From NCBI GenBank assembly GCA_017538795.1, contig JAFYIE010000030.1, forward strand, positions 1 through 64,000: 64,000 nt of DNA. Direction: 5' to 3'. How positions within the stretch are numbered: position 1 is the first letter of the stretch; each line of letters opens with the position of its first letter. The position numbers and the translations under genes are program-made. The DNA comes from Bacteroidales bacterium. Its GTDB lineage: Bacteria; Bacteroidota; Bacteroidia; Bacteroidales; F082. Positions 181 to 17,288 of this stretch are shown piece after piece. The notes under the pieces are model-generated. The model searched no databases and was not told where the DNA came from. It saw only the letters and a list, made by a program, of their open reading frames with translations.

Positions 181-3171
181 ATGAAAATAGAAGACGTATA
201 TAAAATATTGGATTTTGAGGGCAAGGGCGGTTTTGTGTCGTTGGCAGAACCAGACTGGGACACGAAGACAGAAATGCCGGAGAGGGTTCAAAACCTTTTG
301 AAGGATAAGGAAAGCCCTGTGTCCGAAGCCTCGGCTCTGTTTTGCTTCGGTGGAAAGCCATTGATACTCTTCTTTGAAAATCCAACTGATAACACTAACT
401 TGTTCAAAGCTGTATGGAACTTGAACGAGGTGCCCATCATCATAGTGGTAAGCAATGACAGTGTGCGCGTGTTTAATGGCTTCGCTTATGAAAAAGAGTT
501 GGATTCGCTCAGGTTGATGGGCGATGAGAAGATCTTGGGGCAGTTCTCTTATTTCAAGTTGGTAACGGGTAGAAGTTGGGAGGATTTTCAGGAAGAATTG
601 TCACATCACAACCGGGTGGACTACTACCTGCTTAAAAACATCCAATTTGCCCAAAAGCATATCCAAGATACTGGCGTATCGCACAACCTTGCCAACCGTT
701 TGATAGGTAAGATTATATTCTTGCGCTATCTGACCGACCGCCATGTAGTGCTTAATTTTGAAGGGCAACGTCGTTCGCTGACGAATAACGATCTGATAGC
801 CTTGCTTCAAGACAAGCAGCGGCTATCAGTGCTTTTCGAGACACTTCAGGACAAAGAAAAAGGTTTTAATGGAGATCTGTTCCAGATTTCTCACGAAGAA
901 CTTGACAGTGTGCCGGAGCTTGCATTGGATGTACTTGTGCGACTTTTGCGTAGCGACAATCTTGAAGACGGGAATCTCTCGTTATTCGATGTGTATGATT
1001 TCTCCATTCTTCCGGTAGAGTTTATCAGCAATGTGTATGAGCGCTTCATCGGTAAGGAGAACCAAGAGAGAGAGGGTGCCTATTATACCCCACGCTTCTT
1101 GGTGGACTATGTGGTAGAAAACACTGTTGGGCGGCATTTGGCCACCTCACAAGAAAGTACCTGCCGTGTGCTTGACCCCGCGTGTGGTTCGGGAATCTTC
1201 CTTGTGGAGTCACTGCGACGAATTATCGACCACTATATCCATCACGGTGGGGGAGTAGATGTGCGGGGGGCTGCTTTCCAGAAAAAGTTGCGTGAACTGG
1301 TGGTCGATAATATTTATGGAATAGATAGTGACGAAAGTGCCATACAGGTGGCCGCTTTCTCTATTTACCTCACCTTGCTCGATTATCAGAAACCGGCAGA
1401 TATATCCACCTTCCGTTTCCCGAACCTGATAGGCTCTAACTTGAGGTGTCAGGATGCCTTCTGCCATGCAAGTTTTGAGGGCGTGGAGTTTGACTATATT
1501 ATTGGCAACCCACCATGGAATCGTGGTCGTAAGGAGTTGGATGAAGAGGGGAATGTGATTGTTCCCAAATACCAACAGTATGTGGCACGCCGTGAGAAGG
1601 ACGAGGCCAAACGCATCGTGGGCAACAAAGAGATTGCTCAGGCTTTTGTGCTGCGTTCTATGGACTTTATGAACGAGCGAACACAAACAGCATTGGTGCT
1701 TACGAGCAAAGTGCTATACAACGGACAGAGTAAATCGTTCAGAGAATACTTGTTGGATAAGGTGCAAGTGAACACCGTGCTTGAACTTTCATCCGTGAGA
1801 AGGGAAGTGTTCTCGCAGTCGAGTGACCCCGCCATAGCACCAGCATGTGTTCTGTTCTATCAAAATAAGAGGGAAGGTGGCAGTGGCGTTCATACATTGA
1901 CACATGCAGCGGTGAAGCCCAGCGTGTTCTTCACTCTTTTTAAGGTGTTGACTATTGAGAAGGCTGACATACAGCATGTTCGTCAAGACTTGCTGAGGGA
2001 ACACGACGAGTTGTGGAAGATTCTACTCTATGGATCATATCTGGACTTTCTCTTTGTAAACCGCTTGCGAGGGATGAGAACTATCCAGCAGGAAATCATG
2101 GAAAGGGGTTATGAAACGGGTAACGGAGTAACATGTGGAAAAGAGCATACCCGACATTATGACATTAGTTCATACGTTGGTAAGAGGGAAATTGTATATG
2201 GGCAAATAGAGCCTTACCACATTCTGCCTTCAAATAAGCACTGGACGCATCCTCGCGCGCAGTGGGGGCGTCGCCCCATACTGTTCAAGGGCCCATTATT
2301 GTTGACGAGGAAAGGCATCGATAGCACGGACTTCTCTTGTCGCTCTTCGGTTTATGAAGGTGATGCTATTTATAAAGATGCCATTACCGGTGTACATGGT
2401 GAGGACATCAACGTATTGCGCAATATGGTGGGCGTACTCAATAGCAGTCTTTTCAGCTACTTTGCCTTGATGTGCATGAGTTCCGCTGGTGTAGAGCGCG
2501 AACAGGGTCTGAAAAATGAGAAATTCTCTATGCCATACGTCAGCGGAGCCATTGCAAGTCATGTGGAGGCGATAGAACGCAAGTATGTTGAATTAGAAAA
2601 CGATCCACTCCAGCCACGAGATGTGGCGGAAATTTTCATTGCAAAAAAGAGGGAAAAGATAGACAGCATCATAGCAGAGGAACTGCATCTGACGACTGTG
2701 GAGTCTGCACTTGTTGACTATGCCATCCATTATTCAATACCTTTGGCTACTGGACGTGCTACTGCTACATCAGTGACCAATAATACCAAAGGCAGGAAAA
2801 TTTTGGAGGAATACGCTGGGGTATTCATGGAACGCTTTAATGGACAATTGGGCGAAGGAAACTGTCTCAACTGTCAGTGTGAGATAGCAACGGACTATGT
2901 GTCTGTGCGTTTTAAGGTGGAAAAAGAGGAAAAGTCTATGTCATTTACGAAAAGCAAGGCCAGTGGCTTGACGGCACTCTTGCTTGCATTGTCAGCAGAG
3001 AACCTTTCAGACCAACTGTATCTACGCAAAGACATACGGGGCTTTGAGAAGGACGGATTCTACGTTGTTAAGCCTTGCGACCAGCGCCTGTGGCACAAGG
3101 CTGTCGCATACGTGGACGTTCAGGAATTTGTGGATGCCATACTGTCGAACCAAATAAGAACAGCAAAATGA
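181..3171 (+). CDS. N6-adenine DNA methyltransferase, type IIG / Eco57I-like
   Basis: A 996-residue DNA methyltransferase expected to transfer a methyl group from S-adenosylmethionine to adenine. The AdoMet-binding motif VLDPACGSGIFL lies at residues 330-341 and the catalytic NPPW motif at 443-446. About 500 residues follow and would hold the target-recognition part. The first 100 residues resemble the HsdR-N nuclease fold in layout, but the usual ExK is replaced by FFENP around Glu66, so this domain looks catalytically dead. The gene overlaps the next one by four bases (ATGA at 3168), which implies co-translation with a separate nuclease-like protein. No Shine-Dalgarno sequence is seen. The methyltransferase call is firm; the system type is inferred. 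Confidence 0.9.
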   Translation: MKIEDVYKILDFEGKGGFVSLAEPDWDTKTEMPERVQNLLKDKESPVSEASALFCFGGKPLILFFENPTDNTNLFKAVWNLNEVPIIIVVSNDSVRVFNGFAYEKELDSLRLMGDEKILGQFSYFKLVTGRSWEDFQEELSHHNRVDYYLLKNIQFAQKHIQDTGVSHNLANRLIGKIIFLRYLTDRHVVLNFEGQRRSLTNNDLIALLQDKQRLSVLFETLQDKEKGFNGDLFQISHEELDSVPELALDVLVRLLRSDNLEDGNLSLFDVYDFSILPVEFISNVYERFIGKENQEREGAYYTPRFLVDYVVENTVGRHLATSQESTCRVLDPACGSGIFLVESLRRIIDHYIHHGGGVDVRGAAFQKKLRELVVDNIYGIDSDESAIQVAAFSIYLTLLDYQKPADISTFRFPNLIGSNLRCQDAFCHASFEGVEFDYIIGNPPWNRGRKELDEEGNVIVPKYQQYVARREKDEAKRIVGNKEIAQAFVLRSMDFMNERTQTALVLTSKVLYNGQSKSFREYLLDKVQVNTVLELSSVRREVFSQSSDPAIAPACVLFYQNKREGGSGVHTLTHAAVKPSVFFTLFKVLTIEKADIQHVRQDLLREHDELWKILLYGSYLDFLFVNRLRGMRTIQQEIMERGYETGNGVTCGKEHTRHYDISSYVGKREIVYGQIEPYHILPSNKHWTHPRAQWGRRPILFKGPLLLTRKGIDSTDFSCRSSVYEGDAIYKDAITGVHGEDINVLRNMVGVLNSSLFSYFALMCMSSAGVEREQGLKNEKFSMPYVSGAIASHVEAIERKYVELENDPLQPRDVAEIFIAKKREKIDSIIAEELHLTTVESALVDYAIHYSIPLATGRATATSVTNNTKGRKILEEYAGVFMERFNGQLGEGNCLNCQCEIATDYVSVRFKVEKEEKSMSFTKSKASGLTALLLALSAENLSDQLYLRKDIRGFEKDGFYVVKPCDQRLWHKAVAYVDVQEFVDAILSNQIRTAK

Positions 3172-3794
3172 TGAACGTGGCGTTATTTGGTTACAGCGAG
3201 GTTTACTATCAGTCGCAGTTGAAAGGTTTGCTTCATGACATAGTCGTGGTCTATGAACGAATCCTACAAAGTGGAGTCAAGCTACCAAACAACGAGAACA
3301 CTATCCGTAATGAGTTTGGAAAGTACTTCTCCGATCAGAGTTACAAAGTTACCTGTACAACGGCGAAAGACTACTATTACGATTTCGAAGTCAGCCTGCA
3401 GAAAACCGCAGGGAGAGTGGACATGCGTTTTCTTTCGCCAAACTGTTTGTGCGTTCAGGACTATTTCTTTGGCATAGAATGTAAGCGACTTGACGGGACA
3501 AGACATCTTTCCAAGGAATATGTGGTGAATGGTATCAGACGGTTTACTACGGGTAAATATCCATCGTATCTTGGCTGTAATGCCATGCTGGGATTTGTCG
3601 TATGTCCTATAGACTTAGATGAAACTGTGGGATATGTGAACAATAACCTGACTGTCGATGAGTACCTTCAGCAAGTAGGAACTACAGCAAGGACTGTGGG
3701 ATTTGAATCCCATCATACCAGTCCACATCATTTGGTATTATACCATTTGTGGATGAACTTTGTGGGATTGATTATTAAAGAAACTGAAAATTAA
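3168..3794 (+). CDS. Probable PD-(D/E)XK-type restriction nuclease subunit
   Basis: A 208-residue protein of no family I can name. Asp85 (in GRVDMRF) followed by Glu104-Cys-Lys106 (in FGIECKRLDG) has the spacing and strand-like surroundings of a PD-(D/E)XK nuclease core. The start is the ATG at 3168, or the adjacent ATG at 3171; the frame stays open upstream to 3075, but that part lies inside the methyltransferase gene and reads as a shadow. The overlapping start and the next gene 15 bases downstream place it in the same operon as the methyltransferase, DUF262 and ATPase genes. I infer it supplies the DNA-cutting activity that the degenerate N-terminus of the methyltransferase lacks. Confidence 0.65.
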   Translation: MMNVALFGYSEVYYQSQLKGLLHDIVVVYERILQSGVKLPNNENTIRNEFGKYFSDQSYKVTCTTAKDYYYDFEVSLQKTAGRVDMRFLSPNCLCVQDYFFGIECKRLDGTRHLSKEYVVNGIRRFTTGKYPSYLGCNAMLGFVVCPIDLDETVGYVNNNLTVDEYLQQVGTTARTVGFESHHTSPHHLVLYHLWMNFVGLIIKETEN

Positions 3795-3809
3795 AGACAA
3801 GAAAAGAAT

Positions 3810-5471
3810 ATGGCATTATATCTTTCCGCTGCTCAAAAGAGTTTGAAGTTGTTGTTTGCTAACGATAGCAGATATGTAATACCAACATATCAGCGGCCAT
3901 ACTCATGGTCGTTGGAACAATGCAGACAGCTTTTTGATGATGTACGCGATGCGTACCTCAGTGGGCGCGATTCTTATTTTTTAGGTAATATAGTACTGGC
4001 AGAAGACGATAGCGAAGAGATGCCAGAAGTAGTGGACGGACAACAAAGACTTATTACACTTTGGCTTTTTTTGAAGGCACTATATGTGCTTTTACCCACA
4101 TATAGCAAGCTTAAAAGGATGATTTTTCTTGAAACGGAAGATAACAATGGCCAGGAGATACGTGTGAGCAAAGTGCTATCGAATGTCTTTGAGGTAGTGG
4201 ATCAAAAGCAAATAGATGATGTAAAAAACTACGATAAGACGAGATACGACAAACAACTCCGTGAATACTTGACAATAGGAGAGGACAGATACTTCAAGAC
4301 TCATTTCGACCACGTTTATGATAATGCTGTTGCCATTTACTCTATTCTCAACGATTATTTCTGTAATCTGAGTCAGGATGAGCAGCGTAGTTTTACTGAG
4401 TTCTTTATAAGTAGGATTTATTTATTGCCTATCATCCTTAAAGATGAGGATATTAACAAGGCTCGTTCCAATGCATTGATGGTGTTTGAGACCATTAATA
4501 ATCGTGGTATGGATTTGCAAGATGCAGACATATTCAAAGCCAGACTTTATGAAATGGCTTTGCGTGCAGAAAAAGGTGAAGAGTTTATTCTGCAATGGAA
4601 GGGCATTAATCAGCAGTGTACCGACCTGGGTATTACTATAGATGACTTGTTTAGGTATTACTACCATATTGTTAGAGGTGGGATGGGGATTGTTACAGCA
4701 GAGAAGGGGCTTCGTGATTTCTTCCAAAACGACTCGAAATCGCCATTCAAAAAGGGTGATTATGCGAAGATATTAACTGCGCTTACAGATGTCCTTGCCG
4801 TTCTTTCTGTTTGTGAAGACAAGAAGACGGAAAATACACGTACAGCAGCATGGATGCAAGTATTATATGCTTACACTAATCAATATCCAGTGTATGCTCT
4901 CGTATGCTATATGTATTTTAACAAGAATCATAGTGATTCTGACTTGCTCGACATTTTGATGAAACTGGTGCGCTACTGTTATTGGAAAGGGTCAACGACA
5001 ACAGTAAAGTTTGAAATATACAACATTATCTATAATGTGGCTCATCAGGAGAGGATTGCGGACTATATGTGCAAGGAGATAGCTTCGGATATGTGGATGA
5101 AGCCAGGCAAACTGACCAAGGGCCTTTGTCTTTTGTCGTTCTATATGAACAATCCAGACATAGGTGCTATTCAGAATGTGAATGTCGATAAAATCATCAA
5201 ACCTGTGGACGTGACTATGCTCGGAAAGGATTGGGATATGGTTGACAAGGATGAGAGTTTGAACAGTCTGGGAAACTACATAGTTCTGGATGTACCCAAG
5301 AGAAGTGCTCCGTTCAATAGACGTTATTCCTCATATTTAACATCTTCACTTCCGGAGGTTAGAGATTTGACCAATATAAGTGTTGGTTTATCTTATGACT
5401 ACCATCAAGGTAGGGTAAAGAAGATATTCGAAGCGCTACAGGATTTCTTTGTGTTTGGAAAAGGCGTATGA
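3810..5471 (+). CDS. DUF262 (GmrSD/SspE-like) protein with altered C-terminal domain
   Basis: A 553-residue DUF262 protein. The family signatures are clear: IPTYQRPYSW at residues 24-33 and DGQQR at 76-80. These mark the ParB/sulfiredoxin-like nucleotide-using domain found in GmrSD type IV restriction enzymes and in SspE. The C-terminal third keeps a trace of DUF1524 (LGN at 487-489 and an Asn near 504), but the segment that normally reads E-H-I-x-P is D460-K-I-I-K-P, so the HNH histidine appears to be lost. It ends in a four-base overlap with the ATPase gene (5468-5471). Its role is inferred to be sensing or regulation in the defence module rather than cleavage. Confidence 0.85.
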   Translation: MALYLSAAQKSLKLLFANDSRYVIPTYQRPYSWSLEQCRQLFDDVRDAYLSGRDSYFLGNIVLAEDDSEEMPEVVDGQQRLITLWLFLKALYVLLPTYSKLKRMIFLETEDNNGQEIRVSKVLSNVFEVVDQKQIDDVKNYDKTRYDKQLREYLTIGEDRYFKTHFDHVYDNAVAIYSILNDYFCNLSQDEQRSFTEFFISRIYLLPIILKDEDINKARSNALMVFETINNRGMDLQDADIFKARLYEMALRAEKGEEFILQWKGINQQCTDLGITIDDLFRYYYHIVRGGMGIVTAEKGLRDFFQNDSKSPFKKGDYAKILTALTDVLAVLSVCEDKKTENTRTAAWMQVLYAYTNQYPVYALVCYMYFNKNHSDSDLLDILMKLVRYCYWKGSTTTVKFEIYNIIYNVAHQERIADYMCKEIASDMWMKPGKLTKGLCLLSFYMNNPDIGAIQNVNVDKIIKPVDVTMLGKDWDMVDKDESLNSLGNYIVLDVPKRSAPFNRRYSSYLTSSLPEVRDLTNISVGLSYDYHQGRVKKIFEALQDFFVFGKGV

Positions 5472-6892
5472 AGAATATTGTAATAAAGAACTTCAAGGCA
5501 TTCGGTGACGACCCTGTAATGATTGGTGGTACAACAAAACAAGGAGTACCGCTGAATGTGTTGTGCTACGGCGAAAACGGGTCTGGTAAGAGTTCCATTT
5601 TTGAGGCCATGAAGTTCGTCTTTCACTATGAACGCATAAAGAGAGAGCGAAATCTGCATCATCTGACGGGAGAGGAATTGGCAAACGCCTTTCGTCAAAT
5701 ACAGTTGGATTTTGGGCATAAGAATGCTGGTGTTGACTTTGAAATTTCCGTCAATAATACATCCTATGCTGATTTTAATATAGCACATTATCATGTCTAT
5801 ATGATTAGTGGTGACGATCTGGAATCCCGAAACCAGATAAACGTTAAGGAAATATTGAAAAAAGCATGGATAGGACCCCATGACATAGATACTGAATTCA
5901 CAGATGCCCACATGGATGTTGTTGTGGATGATGTGAATCAGTTTCTTAGTGAATTCTTCTTTGAGACAATAAGGGTGAGCCGGTCCCAGAATGGTACATT
6001 TCTGTTAAAGATTGTAGATACTGCAAAAGGGCTTGACCAAGATGATGACTTGAAAATGTGGTTCAACGAGGCCAAGATACACCTCGTTACACTGCTCTCG
6101 ATGCTGGGGTCGATATTATTGATGGCACCAAAAGGTGAAAACGAAAAGCGGATATTAGTGCTGGATGACTTTATCACGAGCCTTGATATGGCTAACAGGA
6201 CATTTCTTTATCAATGTATTGTGTCGAGGTTTAAGGATTTCCAAGTCTTGTTATTCACTCATAACACTAGTTTTTACAACCTTTGCGACCACTTTATTGA
6301 CGAGGACAAAGAACAGAAAGACAAATGGCTTAGACAAGGTGTCTTTGAGTATAACAACAAGCATGTGGTTTATAACCTGGATAAGGCTGACACTATCAAG
6401 AAATTGGAGCAACGGTTACATGATCATCCGAATGAGGTACATGATATTGGCAATGATGTGAGGCAGTACTTCGAGGTGCTACTACATCGGCTGGCCATGC
6501 TCTTGATGGCTGGTGCCAAGGAAGAAACAACAGGCATTTTGGCTGAGATTTCAAAGAAATTAAACCGGAGAGTGTTCAAGGTGGACGGGGACAAAGTTTA
6601 TTATATGCATGACTTGGTAAACAGTTTGATGAATGTGGTGGCTAATGCACCTTCGGACAGACAACTGGAGGTTATTAAGAAGAAACTGAAAGATTTTAAT
6701 GATGCAAAGGATACCGACAAATTGTCGGATAATCTACATGCTATGGTTATCTACCAGAAAGTGGCACTTCATCAGTCATCGCACGGTCATGCTGGATTGC
6801 CTGATTTGTCTGCGAAAGAAATCAAGGCATCGCTTACGGTGATGAAGAAAATGGAGGCGACAATAGAAAAATTGAAAATTGAAAGAATATAA
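5468..6892 (+). CDS. RecF/SMC-like AAA ATPase of the defence module
   Basis: A 474-residue ATP-binding protein that starts inside the stop of the DUF262 gene (ATGA). Walker A is GENGSGKS at residues 35-42, preceded by an N-terminal strand pattern (IVIKNFKAFG) typical of RecF, SMC and OLD-type ATPases. Walker B is ILVLDD near 228-234 and a switch-like THN follows. Only about 180 residues separate the two Walker motifs, so there is no long coiled coil, and the ABC signature is poor. It is the last gene of the module and lies 12 bases before the sugar aminotransferase gene. An energy-consuming sensor or loader role is plausible but not shown. Confidence 0.8.
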   Translation: MKNIVIKNFKAFGDDPVMIGGTTKQGVPLNVLCYGENGSGKSSIFEAMKFVFHYERIKRERNLHHLTGEELANAFRQIQLDFGHKNAGVDFEISVNNTSYADFNIAHYHVYMISGDDLESRNQINVKEILKKAWIGPHDIDTEFTDAHMDVVVDDVNQFLSEFFFETIRVSRSQNGTFLLKIVDTAKGLDQDDDLKMWFNEAKIHLVTLLSMLGSILLMAPKGENEKRILVLDDFITSLDMANRTFLYQCIVSRFKDFQVLLFTHNTSFYNLCDHFIDEDKEQKDKWLRQGVFEYNNKHVVYNLDKADTIKKLEQRLHDHPNEVHDIGNDVRQYFEVLLHRLAMLLMAGAKEETTGILAEISKKLNRRVFKVDGDKVYYMHDLVNSLMNVVANAPSDRQLEVIKKKLKDFNDAKDTDKLSDNLHAMVIYQKVALHQSSHGHAGLPDLSAKEIKASLTVMKKMEATIEKLKIERI

Positions 6893-6904
6893 AAAATAAT
6901 TGTT

Positions 6905-8014
6905 ATGATACCCTTTTTATCATTAAAAGACATAACAGCTCTTCATGGAGCTGAAATTAACGAGGCCGTCACCCGTGTGGTGAATGGCGGCTGGTATCTC
7001 CAAGGCGAGGAAAACAAACGCTTTGAGGAGAACTATTCCAAGTTTATCGGCACCAAACACACCATTGGCTGCGCCAACGGCCTGGATGCCCTAATATGGA
7101 TATTCCGAGCCTATATCGAACTGGGCGTGATGCAGCCTGGCGACGAGGTGATTGTTCCGGCCAACACCTATATTGCCACCATCCTCTCCATCACCGAGAA
7201 TGGCTTGAAGCCCGTCTTGGTGGAACCCAAGTTGAACACCTTGGAGATAGATGATGACCTGATTGAAAAGGCCAACACCCCCAAGACCAAGGCTATCTGC
7301 ATCGTCCACCTCTATGGCCGCAATGCTTACACTGACAAGATTGGTGCCTTGTGCAAGAAGTACAACCTGAAGCTCATCGAAGATAACGCCCAAGCCCACG
7401 GCTGTAAGCACACCGATGGCCGCACCACAGGTTCTATTGGCGATGCAGCGGGTCATTCATTCTATCCGGGAAAAAACCTTGGTGCATTGGGTGATGGAGG
7501 TGCTGTCACTACCAATGACGATGCTCTGGCCGAAGCAGTGCGCACCCTTGCCAACTATGGCTCGCAAAAGAAGTATGTGTTCAAATACACAGGTCGCAAC
7601 AGCCGTTTGGATGAGATTCAGGCTGCCGTGTTGGATGTGAAGCTGAAATACTTGGTTGAGGACAATGCCCACCGCAAACAGGTGGCCAACTATTACTACG
7701 ACCATATCAACAACCCACTAATTACCTTGCCCGACCGTCTGCCCGATGAGCAGAACGCTTACCACCTGTTCCCGATATTGGTGGCCAATGGCAAACGCGA
7801 TGCTTTGCACGACTATTTGGATCAGAATGGCGTGGGCACGGTCATCCATTATCCCATTGCCCCACACAAGCAGGAATGCTACAAAGAGTGGAACGGCATG
7901 AGCTTCCCCGTCACCGAGCGCATTGCAAACGAGGAATTGAGTTTACCCATTGGCCCTGCCATTAAAATGGACGAGGTTGCCGAAGTAGTACGCCTTATCA
8001 ACCATTTTAAATAA
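6905..8014 (+). CDS. fdtB: DegT-family sugar aminotransferase, FdtB/QdtB-like
   Basis: A 369-residue PLP-dependent aminotransferase of the DegT/DnrJ/EryC1/StrS family. The PLP lysine is Lys190 in [16 protein letters not shown], a context typical of FdtB and QdtB, which aminate C3 of dTDP-3-keto-6-deoxyhexoses. Length is normal for the family. A partner 3,4-ketoisomerase (FdtA-like, 31483) and RmlA (30553) occur in the same locus, which supports dTDP-Fuc3N or dTDP-Qui3N synthesis; the two products cannot be told apart from sequence alone. It is the first sugar gene after the defence module and has higher GC than the genes before it. Confidence 0.85.
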
Positions 8015-8048
8015 CAATTAAGCTAATAAGCATCTAAGCTACTAAGCT

Positions 8049-9266
8049 ATGAAGATTTGGATTGTCAATTATTATACAAAACCTGACTGCACTAACCCCA
8101 GATATAATGAGTTTGCCAAACATTTCCAGGCTGCCGGTCATGAAGTGCTTACATTTTATGCTAATTATAAAGGTGATGGAAACTCTCCACTTTTTAATAG
8201 GAAAGAGGTGGGCGGTCTCGACTTTGTTGAGGTGAAGGCTCCACACTATGTTGGGAATGGTGTAGCAAGAATGAAATCCATTTTTAGTTTCGCCTGGGCA
8301 ATCAAGAAGCATTGCAAGGAGTTTGAACGCCCGGATGTTATTCTTCACAATGTCCATGCCCCTTTTGATGCACCAATAGTTTTGGCTGCCAGAAAGCTCA
8401 AGTGTAAGTATGTGTCGGAAGTTTGGGATTTGTGGCCTGATAATTTCGCCAATTTCGGGATGATTTCGCGCAAGAACCCAGCGATGAAGCTGTTTTATCG
8501 CATTGAGAGATGGATATATGAACATGCAGATGAGCGGGTGTTTACTTTGGCTGGTGCAACAGCCTATTTGAAAGGCAAAGGCTGGACAACCGAAACGGGC
8601 GGCAAGATAGACCTTTCTAAAGTGCATTACATCAATAATGGCCTTGACTTGGACCAATTCGACAAGGATAAATTGACACATCCCCGTGAAGATGCAGATA
8701 TGAACGACCCGAATTTGACTAAAATAGTTTATCTGGGTGCGATTAATAAGGCAAACAATGTGAAAACTTTGATAGACGCTGCAGTATTATTACAAGATAT
8801 GCCAAATTATCGTTTCATTATCTACGGTAATGGTGTATATCGACCGGAATTGGAACAGTATGTAAAGGAAAACCATATTGACAATGTGGTGTTCAAGGAA
8901 ACGCGCATCCCTTTGGAAGAATGTGCATGGGTGGTGAGTCAAGCCACGGTCAATATCATGAACTACGAAAAGGGCTTCGGTTATATGGGAGTGTCTTCAG
9001 GAAAGATGTTTCAATACTTGGCTGCTGGTAAGCCCATTGTCTGTAATGTTGACATAGCTTACGATAATGTGATAAAAGATAATAATCTTGGTGTCTGCCG
9101 TGACATTGAAACTTCAGAGGAATTTGCGATGGCGATTCGTAGCCTTGCTGAGCAACCACGTGCAAGTTACGATGCCATGTGTGAACGAGTGAGGGAGGTG
9201 GCAAAGAGGTTTGATTATAAGGTGCTCGCGCAGAGAGAACTTGAAATCATTGAGTCTCTTAAATAG
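8049..9266 (+). CDS. Glycosyltransferase family 4 (WbuB-like)
   Basis: A 405-residue GT-B fold glycosyltransferase. The N-terminal half begins with MKIWIVNYYT, and YVSEVWDLWPDNF near 118-130 is typical of WbuB-like enzymes that add a sugar to a lipid-linked acceptor. The C-terminal half has the nucleotide-sugar-binding segment GKMFQYLAAGKPIV near 318-331. It should use an activated sugar, probably at the cytoplasmic face of the inner membrane, during repeat-unit assembly. The donor cannot be told. It follows fdtB by 34 bases; this gap holds short repeats of a TAAGCT unit. Confidence 0.85.
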   Translation: MKIWIVNYYTKPDCTNPRYNEFAKHFQAAGHEVLTFYANYKGDGNSPLFNRKEVGGLDFVEVKAPHYVGNGVARMKSIFSFAWAIKKHCKEFERPDVILHNVHAPFDAPIVLAARKLKCKYVSEVWDLWPDNFANFGMISRKNPAMKLFYRIERWIYEHADERVFTLAGATAYLKGKGWTTETGGKIDLSKVHYINNGLDLDQFDKDKLTHPREDADMNDPNLTKIVYLGAINKANNVKTLIDAAVLLQDMPNYRFIIYGNGVYRPELEQYVKENHIDNVVFKETRIPLEECAWVVSQATVNIMNYEKGFGYMGVSSGKMFQYLAAGKPIVCNVDIAYDNVIKDNNLGVCRDIETSEEFAMAIRSLAEQPRASYDAMCERVREVAKRFDYKVLAQRELEIIESLK

Positions 9267-9716
9267 TCACACAGAAAACACAGATAACACAGAAATAATA
9301 TAAACGTGTAATTACCATTAATTTGACCATTAATTATCGACCACGGATTTAGCGGATATGACGGATAGCTGGTTTGAACACGAATCTGACGAACTGAACG
9401 AATGGGGTTGTTTCATATAGATGATGATTTTACTCATTTAGAGTGTGTTGAAAACAGGTTTTCACAAGCACTCCGAATGAATAAAACTTTTGCATACAGC
9501 AAAGCAGACCAACTGGTCTGTCATCTATATGAAAGTAGTTGGGGAGAATATCTGTGGTATCTGTGATATCTGTGAGAAGCATGAAAGATATTAACGAGCA
9601 ATTATACGGCCAATTAACGTTGAAGAAAAAGATCTGTTAGATTAGTGTCATCCGTGTTCCAAAAGAAAATATCTGTGATTTCTGAGCTATCTGTGTGAAA
9701 CAAAAAATGAATATCT
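9267..9716. other. 450-base intergenic stretch, low-complexity with one structured element
   Basis: No coding potential is evident. Both ends are built from degenerate repeats of phrases such as ATCTGTG and CACAGA (9270-9295, 9545-9580, 9670-9700), an intergenic pattern common in this organism. The middle (9411-9534) is a nested palindrome listed separately. Confidence 0.6.
9411..9534. repeat. Nested palindromic element
   Basis: The outer arms TTTCATATAGATGA (9411-9424) and TCATCTATATGAAA (9521-9534) are perfect 14-base inverted repeats. Inside lies a second, imperfect hairpin of about 23 base pairs (roughly 9433-9480), and then a short perfect hairpin CAGACC-AACT-GGTCTG (9505-9520). No transposase is encoded. 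It may be a REP-like or MITE-like element, or a structured RNA. Confidence 0.6.
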
Positions 9717-10793
9717 GTGAGCAAATTATTGATAGAACTCATAAATGCTACTCTTTGCAAGAGGCCTTTGAACGAGAAGGTCTTTGAAAGGGCGATAGAA
9801 GCAGACTGGCAACGGTGTTTTGACATGGCCTTGCAGCAGAATGTCTTAGCTATGACGTTTCCAGCCATGTCTTCGCTGCCAAAGGAGTTGAGACCTTCAT
9901 TCACGTTGTGGTCGAAGTGGATGGCATATTCGCAGAGCATTGCTGAGCAGTCGCAGTATAAGCGGCAGGTGGTTGAGAAGATGGGCGCATGGTTGGCTGA
10001 GGAAAAGCTTACAACTACAATTCTCAAGGGGTTCTCTTTGTCGGCACTCTACCCTAATCCAAACCTTCGTGAGTTTAGCGACATAGATATCTTCTCAGGC
10101 AGCGATTATGAAGCAGTAAACGCTTGCTTTTCCAAACATGGAGTGAAGGTGGATAGTGTAGATGGCCATCATGCCTACTTGAAAGTGGATGGTATTTCGG
10201 TGGAACACCACTTTGCTTTCTCCAATACCAAGGTCAAAGATGGTTTGGGTGGACCGGAAGAAGAGTTGCAACGATTGGTAGTATCTGACCCACAACCAAC
10301 ATCAATTCCAGGAATCAACTTTCCTAACTCTGTTTTCACTGCTTTATTTGTCGGCTGGCACGCATACGAGCATTTCTTGCAGGAAAAGATAGAATTACGA
10401 CACGTTATTGACTGGGCTTTGTCATTAAGGCAGTTGACAGAATTAGAGGCAGAGACGCTGAATGAAATAAAACGCAATACTGGCTGGGGCAACTTTTGTG
10501 ACACTCTGACGGCAATTGCTATACGTCAATTAGGCTTGCCTCAAGATTGGTTCCACGAAACTGAACAAGTCGCAGTTGAACAAGAACAACAAGTATGGAA
10601 TGACATAATCAAAGCCTCACGTACTGCTAAAAGCAAGTCTTCCAACCTTCGTCGTATTTACATCGCTAAACGAATGCTGAAAAACAGCTGGAAATTCAAG
10701 GATTATTCAAACATAAGCGCGACTCAGTTGCTTATTAAAGAAACAATCGGTCACTTCAAAACTATAAACTTGAAAACTGACTATAAACAATAA
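9717..10793 (+). CDS. Nucleotidyltransferase-fold protein (NTP_transf_5 type)
   Basis: A 358-residue protein of the uncharacterised nucleotidyltransferase group that often sits in exopolysaccharide loci. The pol-beta-like motif is SDIDIF with aspartates at 122 and 124, preceded by an ILKGFSLSALYP segment typical of the group. The start is a GTG at 9717, chosen because the following residues (SKLLIELINATL) match the usual family N-terminus; the nearby ATG at 9707 is out of frame. The 3' end runs into a low-complexity repeat (ACTATAAAC units, about 10760-10812), so the last ten residues may be variable. Its substrate is unknown. Confidence 0.7.
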   Translation: MSKLLIELINATLCKRPLNEKVFERAIEADWQRCFDMALQQNVLAMTFPAMSSLPKELRPSFTLWSKWMAYSQSIAEQSQYKRQVVEKMGAWLAEEKLTTTILKGFSLSALYPNPNLREFSDIDIFSGSDYEAVNACFSKHGVKVDSVDGHHAYLKVDGISVEHHFAFSNTKVKDGLGGPEEELQRLVVSDPQPTSIPGINFPNSVFTALFVGWHAYEHFLQEKIELRHVIDWALSLRQLTELEAETLNEIKRNTGWGNFCDTLTAIAIRQLGLPQDWFHETEQVAVEQEQQVWNDIIKASRTAKSKSSNLRRIYIAKRMLKNSWKFKDYSNISATQLLIKETIGHFKTINLKTDYKQ

Positions 10794-16533: not shown

Positions 16534-17288
16534 AAAGCGTAATGGATTTCTCAGGAAAGACGATAGTGCTGGCTGGTGCTGGCGGTATTGGTTCTGCCAC
16601 AGCTGAACTTTTGGCATCGCTGGGTGCGAAAATGATTCTGCTGGATGTGGTTGAGGATAAAATGAAAGAAGTTGTTGAGAAACTTCCGGGAGCAGGTCAT
16701 TCATATTATGTGTGTGATTTCTCCACAATAGAGAGTATTGAGCCTGTAATTGCTCAACTAACGCAGGAACACGGTGCGGTTGACGGTTATGTGCATTGCA
16801 CAGGGGTGGGGGCAGTTAGACCACTGAAAATGTCGAAATATGACTTTATGCTACGTGTGATGAACATCAATTTCTTCTCTTTTATTGAAGTTGTACGTTG
16901 TCTAACCAAGAAAGGTGCTTTTAATGAAGGAATGAATGTTGTTGGTGTTTCAGCAGTGGGTGCATATCTTGGTAATGCAACCAAAACGGCTTATTGCGCT
17001 TCGAAGGCTGCAATGAATAGTGCAGTTCGTTGCTTGGCAAAAGAATTGGCAACCAAAGGAATCCGTCTAAATACAGTGGCACCTGGTTCAACTGACACCC
17101 CAATGGCAAGAGAGGCAGCTGACTATCGTGAAGGATCAGATGATTATCGTTTGAACGAAATGCGCCAATATCTTGGCACGTGTCAACCTCAAGATATTGC
17201 TGATTCTATAGTGTTCCTTCTGAGTGAAATGAGTCAAAAGATAACAGGAACATGCTTGCCGGTTGATGGTGGAAAATTGACATCTTAA
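16530..17288 (+). CDS. SDR oxidoreductase (3-oxoacyl-ACP reductase-like)
   Basis: A 252-residue classical SDR. The cofactor-binding motif AGAGGIGSATAELL lies at about 15-28, the catalytic pair is Tyr155 and Lys159 (AYCASKAAM), and the C-terminus has ITGTCLPVDGG. By context it should reduce a 3-oxoacyl group on the carrier protein with NAD(P)H. It overlaps the inactive-looking SDR before it by four bases (ATGA), which favours a paired complex. Confidence 0.85.
   Translation: MKSVMDFSGKTIVLAGAGGIGSATAELLASLGAKMILLDVVEDKMKEVVEKLPGAGHSYYVCDFSTIESIEPVIAQLTQEHGAVDGYVHCTGVGAVRPLKMSKYDFMLRVMNINFFSFIEVVRCLTKKGAFNEGMNVVGVSAVGAYLGNATKTAYCASKAAMNSAVRCLAKELATKGIRLNTVAPGSTDTPMAREAADYREGSDDYRLNEMRQYLGTCQPQDIADSIVFLLSEMSQKITGTCLPVDGGKLTS

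Follow-up and report, generated by a model that had tools for sequence, protein, structure and literature searches.

Four tightly coupled genes at positions 181 to 6892 of contig JAFYIE010000030.1 from a Bacteroidales bacterium (assembly GCA_017538795.1) encode a DNA methyltransferase, a small nuclease-like protein, a DUF262 protein and an ATPase, here called g1 to g4, and they raise the question of whether they act as one system and which of the proteins would cut DNA. The window analysed was the stretch of 64,000 nucleotides from position 1 of the forward strand; it starts at contig base 1, so that the view of the locus begins at g1 and the left flank lies outside the contig. An earlier note on this DNA had described four open reading frames (ORFs) coupled by four-base overlaps or short gaps, and had proposed a single module in which the nuclease may have moved out of the methyltransferase and be controlled by the DUF262 protein and the ATPase. 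The layout proved correct in every coordinate, with g1/g2 and g3/g4 each overlapping by 4 bases and a gap of 15 bases between g2 and g3. Our reading of what the genes do differs: with a probability of roughly 0.7, the locus is a split type IIG-like restriction system (g1–g2) with g3–g4 as a separate adjacent pair. The features are as follows.

g1: 181–3171, plus strand, ATG start at 181; N6-adenine DNA methyltransferase
g1 N-terminal nuclease-like domain: about residues 1–265; degenerate
g2: 3168–3794, plus strand, ATG start at 3168 (or 3171); 208-aa PD-(D/E)XK-like protein with invariant E43, D85 and E104-x-K106; proposed restriction subunit of g1
g3: 3810–5471, plus strand; DUF262 (GmrSD_N) protein with a C-terminal DUF1524-like region lacking the catalytic histidine
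g4: 5468–6892, plus strand; SMC/RecF-like ATPase with Walker A GENGSGKSS, Walker B ILVLDD and a conserved C-terminal region containing HxxSH

Searches with hidden Markov models bore out the methyltransferase, DUF262 and RecF-like identities suggested earlier. The Pfam matches were N6_Mtase (5.8e-21) and Eco57I (3.1e-17) for g1, GmrSD_N (DUF262; 3.8e-33) for g3, and SMC_N/RecF (1e-15) for g4, and the PADLOC family REase_MTase_IIG (PDLC03603) matched g1 over residues 3–988 of 996 (2e-230). For g2, the Pfam, PADLOC and NCBIfam libraries gave no family, only a single Pfam hit at chance level (E 0.19); annotations would therefore miss the putative nuclease.

The g1–g2 pair across genomes

A scan of genome contigs with a g1-only profile yielded 391 relatives; all counts out of 80 given below refer to the best 80 loci among them. 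Using a g2 profile built from nine sequences (one of which, L006, is apparently the same contig as L097), g2 was found in 77 of the 80 loci, nearly always immediately downstream of g1. Two of the loci without g2, L148 and L162, stop at contig ends, and L122 is a genuine lone g1. The median gap between the genes was -4 bases, and 61 pairs overlapped, as measured for 75 of the 77 pairs after setting aside L156, where g2 is split over two frames, and L158. In the latter, a transposase-like gene insertion (6805–8517) interrupts g1, and g2 is intact. Pairwise distances among g1 and among g2 sequences were correlated across 75 loci (r 0.75, with 0 of 2000 permutations as high), a value that still contains the effect of host relatedness.

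According to their record titles, the g1 loci came from many phyla, chiefly Bacteroidota, and more distant pairs, with g1 at 25–37% identity, were recovered in L007, L038 and L040–L044. Among plasmids, g1 matched 24 records, all at less than 60% identity, two of which were inspected; on two alphaproteobacterial plasmids, the ‘hypothetical protein’ after the methylase matched the g2 profile (3.1e-25 and 8e-15). The g2 sequence itself gave no match to phage and plasmid records at E 1e-3, and the g1 profile gave none to viral contigs. Overall, g1–g2 is a conserved two-gene unit. The co-occurrence that the earlier note had put forward as a check on all four genes was seen for this pair and only rarely for g3–g4, which accompanied it in just 2 of the 80 loci.

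A degenerate fused domain and a separate putative nuclease

The methylase motifs of g1 were conserved around D332-P-A-C-G-S-G and N443-P-P-W, and from the motif order we take the protein to be a gamma-class methyltransferase. Lower conservation at residues 640–940 suggests that it carries its own C-terminal recognition region, so that methyltransferase and putative recognition region would share one chain, as in type IIG enzymes. These enzymes are defined by a fused nuclease (PMC3874165, PMC4081073), and an active N-terminal PD-(D/E)XK domain in the same chain is what g1 appears to lack. When the canonical PD-x14-E-x-K was aligned without gaps to the g1 consensus PDAFFCxDNKPLILFFENP, the nuclease positions were occupied in the window by S51, E66 and P68, and the lysine was kept in only 3 of the 82 g1 rows with a residue there (L107, L173 and L038; L137 is cut). 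The motif conservation and the scarcity of this lysine agree with the earlier description of g1 as a type IIG-like enzyme with a full methylase motif and a degenerate N-terminal nuclease region. Since an acidic residue at position 66 is mostly retained (65 of 82 rows), the change in the nuclease region would chiefly be the loss of the lysine. Two other treatments of this region were dropped: F64 had been considered as a substitute for the catalytic glutamate, which the ungapped register instead places at E66, with the lysine as the lost residue, and a loose D...hhExK pattern was rejected as it also matches an unrelated IFVRYLIDRK stretch (31 of 83 rows).

Twelve stretches encoding more distant methyltransferases served as a control, and a g1-like ORF was present in 10 of them (none in L183 and L193). 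The N-terminal nuclease motif was intact in all 10 of these canonical type IIG relatives, with aligned residues E46, D94, E109 and K111, and no ORF of ≥60 aa in the 12 stretches matched the g2 profile at E 0.1, the sequence covered downstream of the 10 genes being 0.7–2.8 kb in nine and 77 bases in L188. Among the loci examined, a fused nuclease and a separate g2 thus appear to be largely mutually exclusive, with L107 and L173 as exceptions. A C-terminal tail of g1, KP-x5-W-x6-8-D, followed the same division. This pattern, which was defined after inspecting the sequences, occurred in 79 of 81 near g1 proteins, the two misses, L158 and L162, being cut. It was present in all 9 distant enzymes that have g2 as a partner and in none of the 10 canonical type IIG relatives. 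We propose that the tail may serve as a docking site for g2.

The g2 alignment comprised 82 sequences, namely that of the window, 74 of the 77 from the scan (L101, L102 and L156 excluded) and 7 distant ones. Residues E43, D85, E104 and K106 were invariant in all 82, as were Y118 and G122; the D85/E104/K106 pattern picked out earlier from one sequence was exactly right and is not a product of chance. The AlphaFold2 model of g2 had a mean predicted local distance difference test (pLDDT) score of 93.2 and a predicted template modelling (pTM) score of 0.90, and its elements were a helix (43–54), three strands (70–76, 83–89 and 100–108), a helix (112–127) and a strand (137–144), in which E43 opens the first helix and D85 and E104/K106 lie in the second and third strands, respectively. 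The PD-(D/E)XK core has the order alpha-beta-beta-beta-alpha-beta, so both the E, D and ExK residues and the element order of the model conform to this fold. A PDB search with g2 alone gave no convincing match, and one with the g2 profile gave none. Judging from the conserved residues and the model, g2 is very probably a nuclease of PD-(D/E)XK-like type, and the earlier proposal that a separate small protein of this type accompanies g1 is supported by its near-constant presence and by the largely exclusive distribution of the fused nuclease and g2.

Under this interpretation, g1 would recognise a short site and methylate an adenine within it, as its family suggests, and its N-terminal nuclease-like domain would be dead and probably only structural. 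The cut would be supplied by g2, recruited to g1 at an unmethylated site, perhaps via the conserved C-terminal tail of g1. A different reading is that the locus is a non-cleaving system of the BREX type, with g1 marking self DNA and g2 not acting as a nuclease. It draws on the resemblance of g1 to the PglX and MAD2 methyltransferases and on the fact that the nuclease role of g2 is predicted only; however, g1 scored far below the cut-offs for MADS MAD2 (77.3 of 720 bits) and for PglX (47.9 of 500 bits for BREX-1 and 51.9 of 900 for BREX-6), and g2 has the invariant E...D...ExK and the element order of a nuclease core. We consider this reading extremely improbable.

Several observations weigh against a split enzyme with a dead fused domain. 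L122 has g1 without g2; the acidic residue at position 66 persists in most rows; and the full D-E-K triad is kept in 2 of 82 rows (L107 and L173), both of which also have g2. In profile comparisons, the g1 N-terminus fell in a similar register to the canonical nuclease domain with a probability of only 1.1% (P 0.05), and of 0.07% against a subset of canonical domains, both of which are weak matches. Finally, comparison of the g2 profile with that of the canonical fused type IIG nuclease domain gave no detectable similarity. The idea of g2 as the excised nuclease of g1 is thus unsupported, and ‘replaced’ is a safer word than ‘moved’: of the earlier suggestion, a separate subunit in place of a degenerate domain stands, and the transfer of that same domain lacks profile similarity. 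Replacement by a different nuclease would account for the data as well as relocation.

If the split reading is right, a family labelled in PADLOC as a single-protein type IIG enzyme appears to need a second gene for cutting, which would correct the annotation of such restriction systems, and the fused-or-separate pattern makes the division of labour directly testable.

Type III operons and the g3–g4 pair as neighbours of g1–g2

In 15 of the 80 loci, g1–g2 was embedded in a type III system, with mod on one side and res on the other. The loci with this mod-g1-g2-res order are the following.

L097, L099, L103, L107, L109, L118, L119, L124, L128, L130, L147, L150, L157, L161, L166

In 12 of them, no more than about 300 bases separate res from g2, and in L147, L166 and L128 res is 0.8, 2.1 and 3.2 kb away, respectively; in two further loci, mod was directly upstream of g1–g2. 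Among the complete genes examined, DPPY was kept in 14 of 14 mod and ETGTGKT in 13 of 13 res, and the FxGxG pattern of mod and the nuclease pattern of res, both used in a narrow form, were found in 6 of 14 and 6 of 13, respectively. On a quickly built g1 tree, the type III label, set against 46 loci with sufficient flank and no such genes, required 11 changes, at least 9 of them forced by well-supported branches, compared with 15.1 on average for shuffled labels (2 of 500 shuffles were as low as observed). These counts suggest that the type III arrangement is partly inherited, yet has been gained or lost repeatedly. In L039 (1496–3256; G075), a truncated g1 lies beside a type III mod, and its 3' part runs, by eye, into unlike sequence.

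The recurrent nesting, the forced label changes and the intact motifs of mod and res could mean that g1–g2 belongs to type III systems as an accessory module working with mod and res, stand-alone copies then being remnants or relying on res in trans. However, 46 loci whose flanks reach 1.5 kb or more on either side, L094, L095 and L096 included, lacked members of the two mod and res sequence clusters next to g1–g2, and we regard such an accessory role as very unlikely. A broader idea, to which we give little credence, is that g1–g2 is a plug-in restriction module that alone works as a split type IIG-like system and in other operons would be steered by their motors or sensors, with the type III helicase doing so between mod and res and g3–g4 deciding when it cuts. 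In any case, the repeated placement in type III operons raises the question of whether the pair is nested there for function or only for transport.

The second pair in the window, g3–g4, is rarer. Strong g4 matches were confined to the window's genome, G002 and G003, in all of which g3 lies beside g4, and some match (E 0.001) was found in 15 of 149 genomes; among 99 genomes of the genus, G000, G002 and G003 gave strong and G031 and G049 weak matches. Wider sampled searches covered 395 genomes of the phylum at E 1e-20 and 393 of the order at E 1e-25; the matches listed, for which no more than four candidates per genome were scored, included the window's own genome only. No plasmid matched g4 at E 1e-8, and the g4 profile detected five partial relatives on viral contigs, three of which were inspected. 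On one viral contig (L178, 834–10615, and L179), a helicase-like gene is followed by a large methyltransferase-like gene (both named by eye), by a g4-related SMC-like ATPase overlapping the latter by 4 bases, and by one further gene.

The DGQQR motif of g3 was invariant in four members, in accordance with the DUF262 domain of the type IV restriction enzyme GmrSD. The other hallmark of that enzyme, a DUF1524 HNH nuclease with its catalytic histidine, is absent: all 4 members have K or Q in place of the histidine, compared with IEH[IV] in 8 of 8 related DUF262 proteins. The DUF1524-like region was faintly recognisable in the g3 of L154 (PF07510, E 0.0073, below the cut-off), and the C-terminal region of g3 was likewise faintly recognisable in the solved DUF262 protein 9jfl, a match not significant alone. 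From these motifs, g3 is predicted to be a GmrSD-like protein with the sensor kept and the nuclease dead, and would add a case of this kind. In g4, Walker A and B are present, and the HxxSH of the C-terminal region was invariant in four members. A weak match to PADLOC NsnB (8.2e-7), which we take to be a component of Menshen, was also obtained. The DUF262 NTPase g3, with its dead HNH remnant, would probably sense a feature of invading DNA and work with g4, and the candidate effector would be the C-terminal region of g4 or a neighbouring nuclease.

Each pair occurs without the other. In 78 of the 80 g1 loci, no g3–g4 was visible in the covered sequence, flanks of more than 5 kb on both sides being available in 43 of the 80. 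Conversely, G002 and G003, with assemblies 72% and 71% complete, carry g3–g4 and had no g1 or g2 match. Their g3–g4 loci, nearly identical to each other, are flanked on one side by an AbiE-like gene pair (named by eye) and on the other by a VirE-PriCT2 protein with a UG39-class reverse transcriptase. A defence island at L091 (498–8336), together with the matching part of L092, comprises g3–g4, an AbiE-like pair (by eye), a UG39 reverse transcriptase and a VirE-PriCT2 protein.

These distributions bear on the earlier view of the four genes as one system, in which the DUF262 protein and the ATPase would gate the g2 nuclease. The four genes do form a single array here, separated by 15 bases between the pairs. 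The window's gene order, whose absence from all other genomes the earlier note had named as decisive against its module, is conserved in one genome, L094, with a gap of 11 bases between the pairs and outer flanks that differ save for remnants of a DegT-type gene; in L154, g3–g4 lies about 0.8 kb upstream of g1–g2. Adjacency in two arrangements favours some link between the pairs and so speaks against our separation of them, and g3, with its own nuclease domain dead, may need a partner nuclease. On the other hand, L094 and L154 were found through the g1 search and thus overstate the link, and they are the only 2 of the 80 g1 loci with g3–g4 in the covered sequence. L124 contains a DUF262 relative (9e-17) at a distance of some 6 kb and no g4. 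In L095 and L096, whose g1 comes next in closeness to that of the window, g2 is followed by other genes (only 1.9 kb is covered there in L095). Between the window and L094, g3 and g4 have diverged far more than g1 and g2, with identities of 82.5, 74.9, 55.0 and 53.4% for g1 to g4, respectively, and nonsynonymous divergence (dN) of 0.10, 0.16, 0.38 and 0.41, synonymous changes being saturated in g3 and g4; this would fit either separate histories or faster evolution of g3–g4. With g3–g4 found among other defence genes in L091/L092 as well, the one-system view is mostly unsupported, and we consider it rather unlikely. We therefore retain the reading of a split type IIG-like system beside a separate pair; both cassettes share one operon-like array here and may help each other.

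Downstream of the array, within 6893–8014, a DegT-type aminotransferase gene (named by eye) of a polysaccharide-like locus follows g4 after 12 bases. In L094, truncated 5' ends of a similar DegT-type gene flank the module on both sides (9704–9766 and 16722–16904; 53 of 61 bases identical), which suggests an integration site common to the window and L094. The g1–g2 pair of L095 (1–9616) likewise adjoins polysaccharide-type genes, named by eye.

Comparison with known systems

Blow et al. 2016 (PMC4752239) reported two type IIG-like systems, AchA6III and OspHL35III, whose endonuclease is a peptide of its own. As in these, g1–g2 combines a methyltransferase and recognition protein without a PD-ExK motif and a separate, here predicted, endonuclease peptide, and the pair can be placed in the split type IIG-like kind. 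The nuclease differs: one published arrangement has a translocase fused to a PLD-family endonuclease and the other a GIY-YIG protein plus a separate translocase, whereas g2 is one small PD-(D/E)XK-like protein and the four genes include no translocase. No helicase or translocase family was among the Pfam matches of the four genes, and a type III res follows in the 15 nested loci. On the opposite strand beside the distant g1–g2 of L041 (10252–17165), a large methyltransferase-like gene and a PLD/SNF2-like gene (by eye) have an AchA6III-like layout.

Eco57I and MmeI (PMC3874165, PMC4081073) share with g1 a methyltransferase with its own recognition region, a length of about 1000 aa and a nuclease-like N-terminus, but in g1 this N-terminal region has degenerated, and the nuclease seems to be encoded by a separate gene. 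The type III systems with a helicase-like ATPase gene 5' of mod (PMC8259958) are also enlarged type III operons, whereas in the nested loci found here a methyltransferase and nuclease pair sits between mod and res.

GmrSD, BrxU and SspE as well as GrwAB (PMC10952713, PMC12137116) have in common with g3 a DUF262 domain with DGQQR and a DUF1524-like C-terminus; g3 has lost the catalytic histidine, and its partner g4 is an SMC-like ATPase, while GrwB has an N-terminal DUF262 domain. Menshen, a DUF262 gene with a predicted OLD nuclease (PMC10952713), resembles g3–g4 in having a DUF262 protein beside an ATPase-type protein, but no TOPRIM family was among the matches listed for g4. The best PADLOC match of g3 was the Hma-embedded candidate HEC-06 (1.7e-34), for which antiviral activity is stated in PMC12988326, and the match spans residues 18–405 of 553 only.

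Among the matches listed from the open-access literature, which does not cover REBASE (where such pairs may be held) or subscription papers, neither a g1-like enzyme with a separate PD-(D/E)XK partner nor a mod-g1-g2-res order appeared. Compared with the published split type IIG-like systems, g1–g2 would thus be new as a variant, with a small PD-(D/E)XK-like putative nuclease and no translocase.

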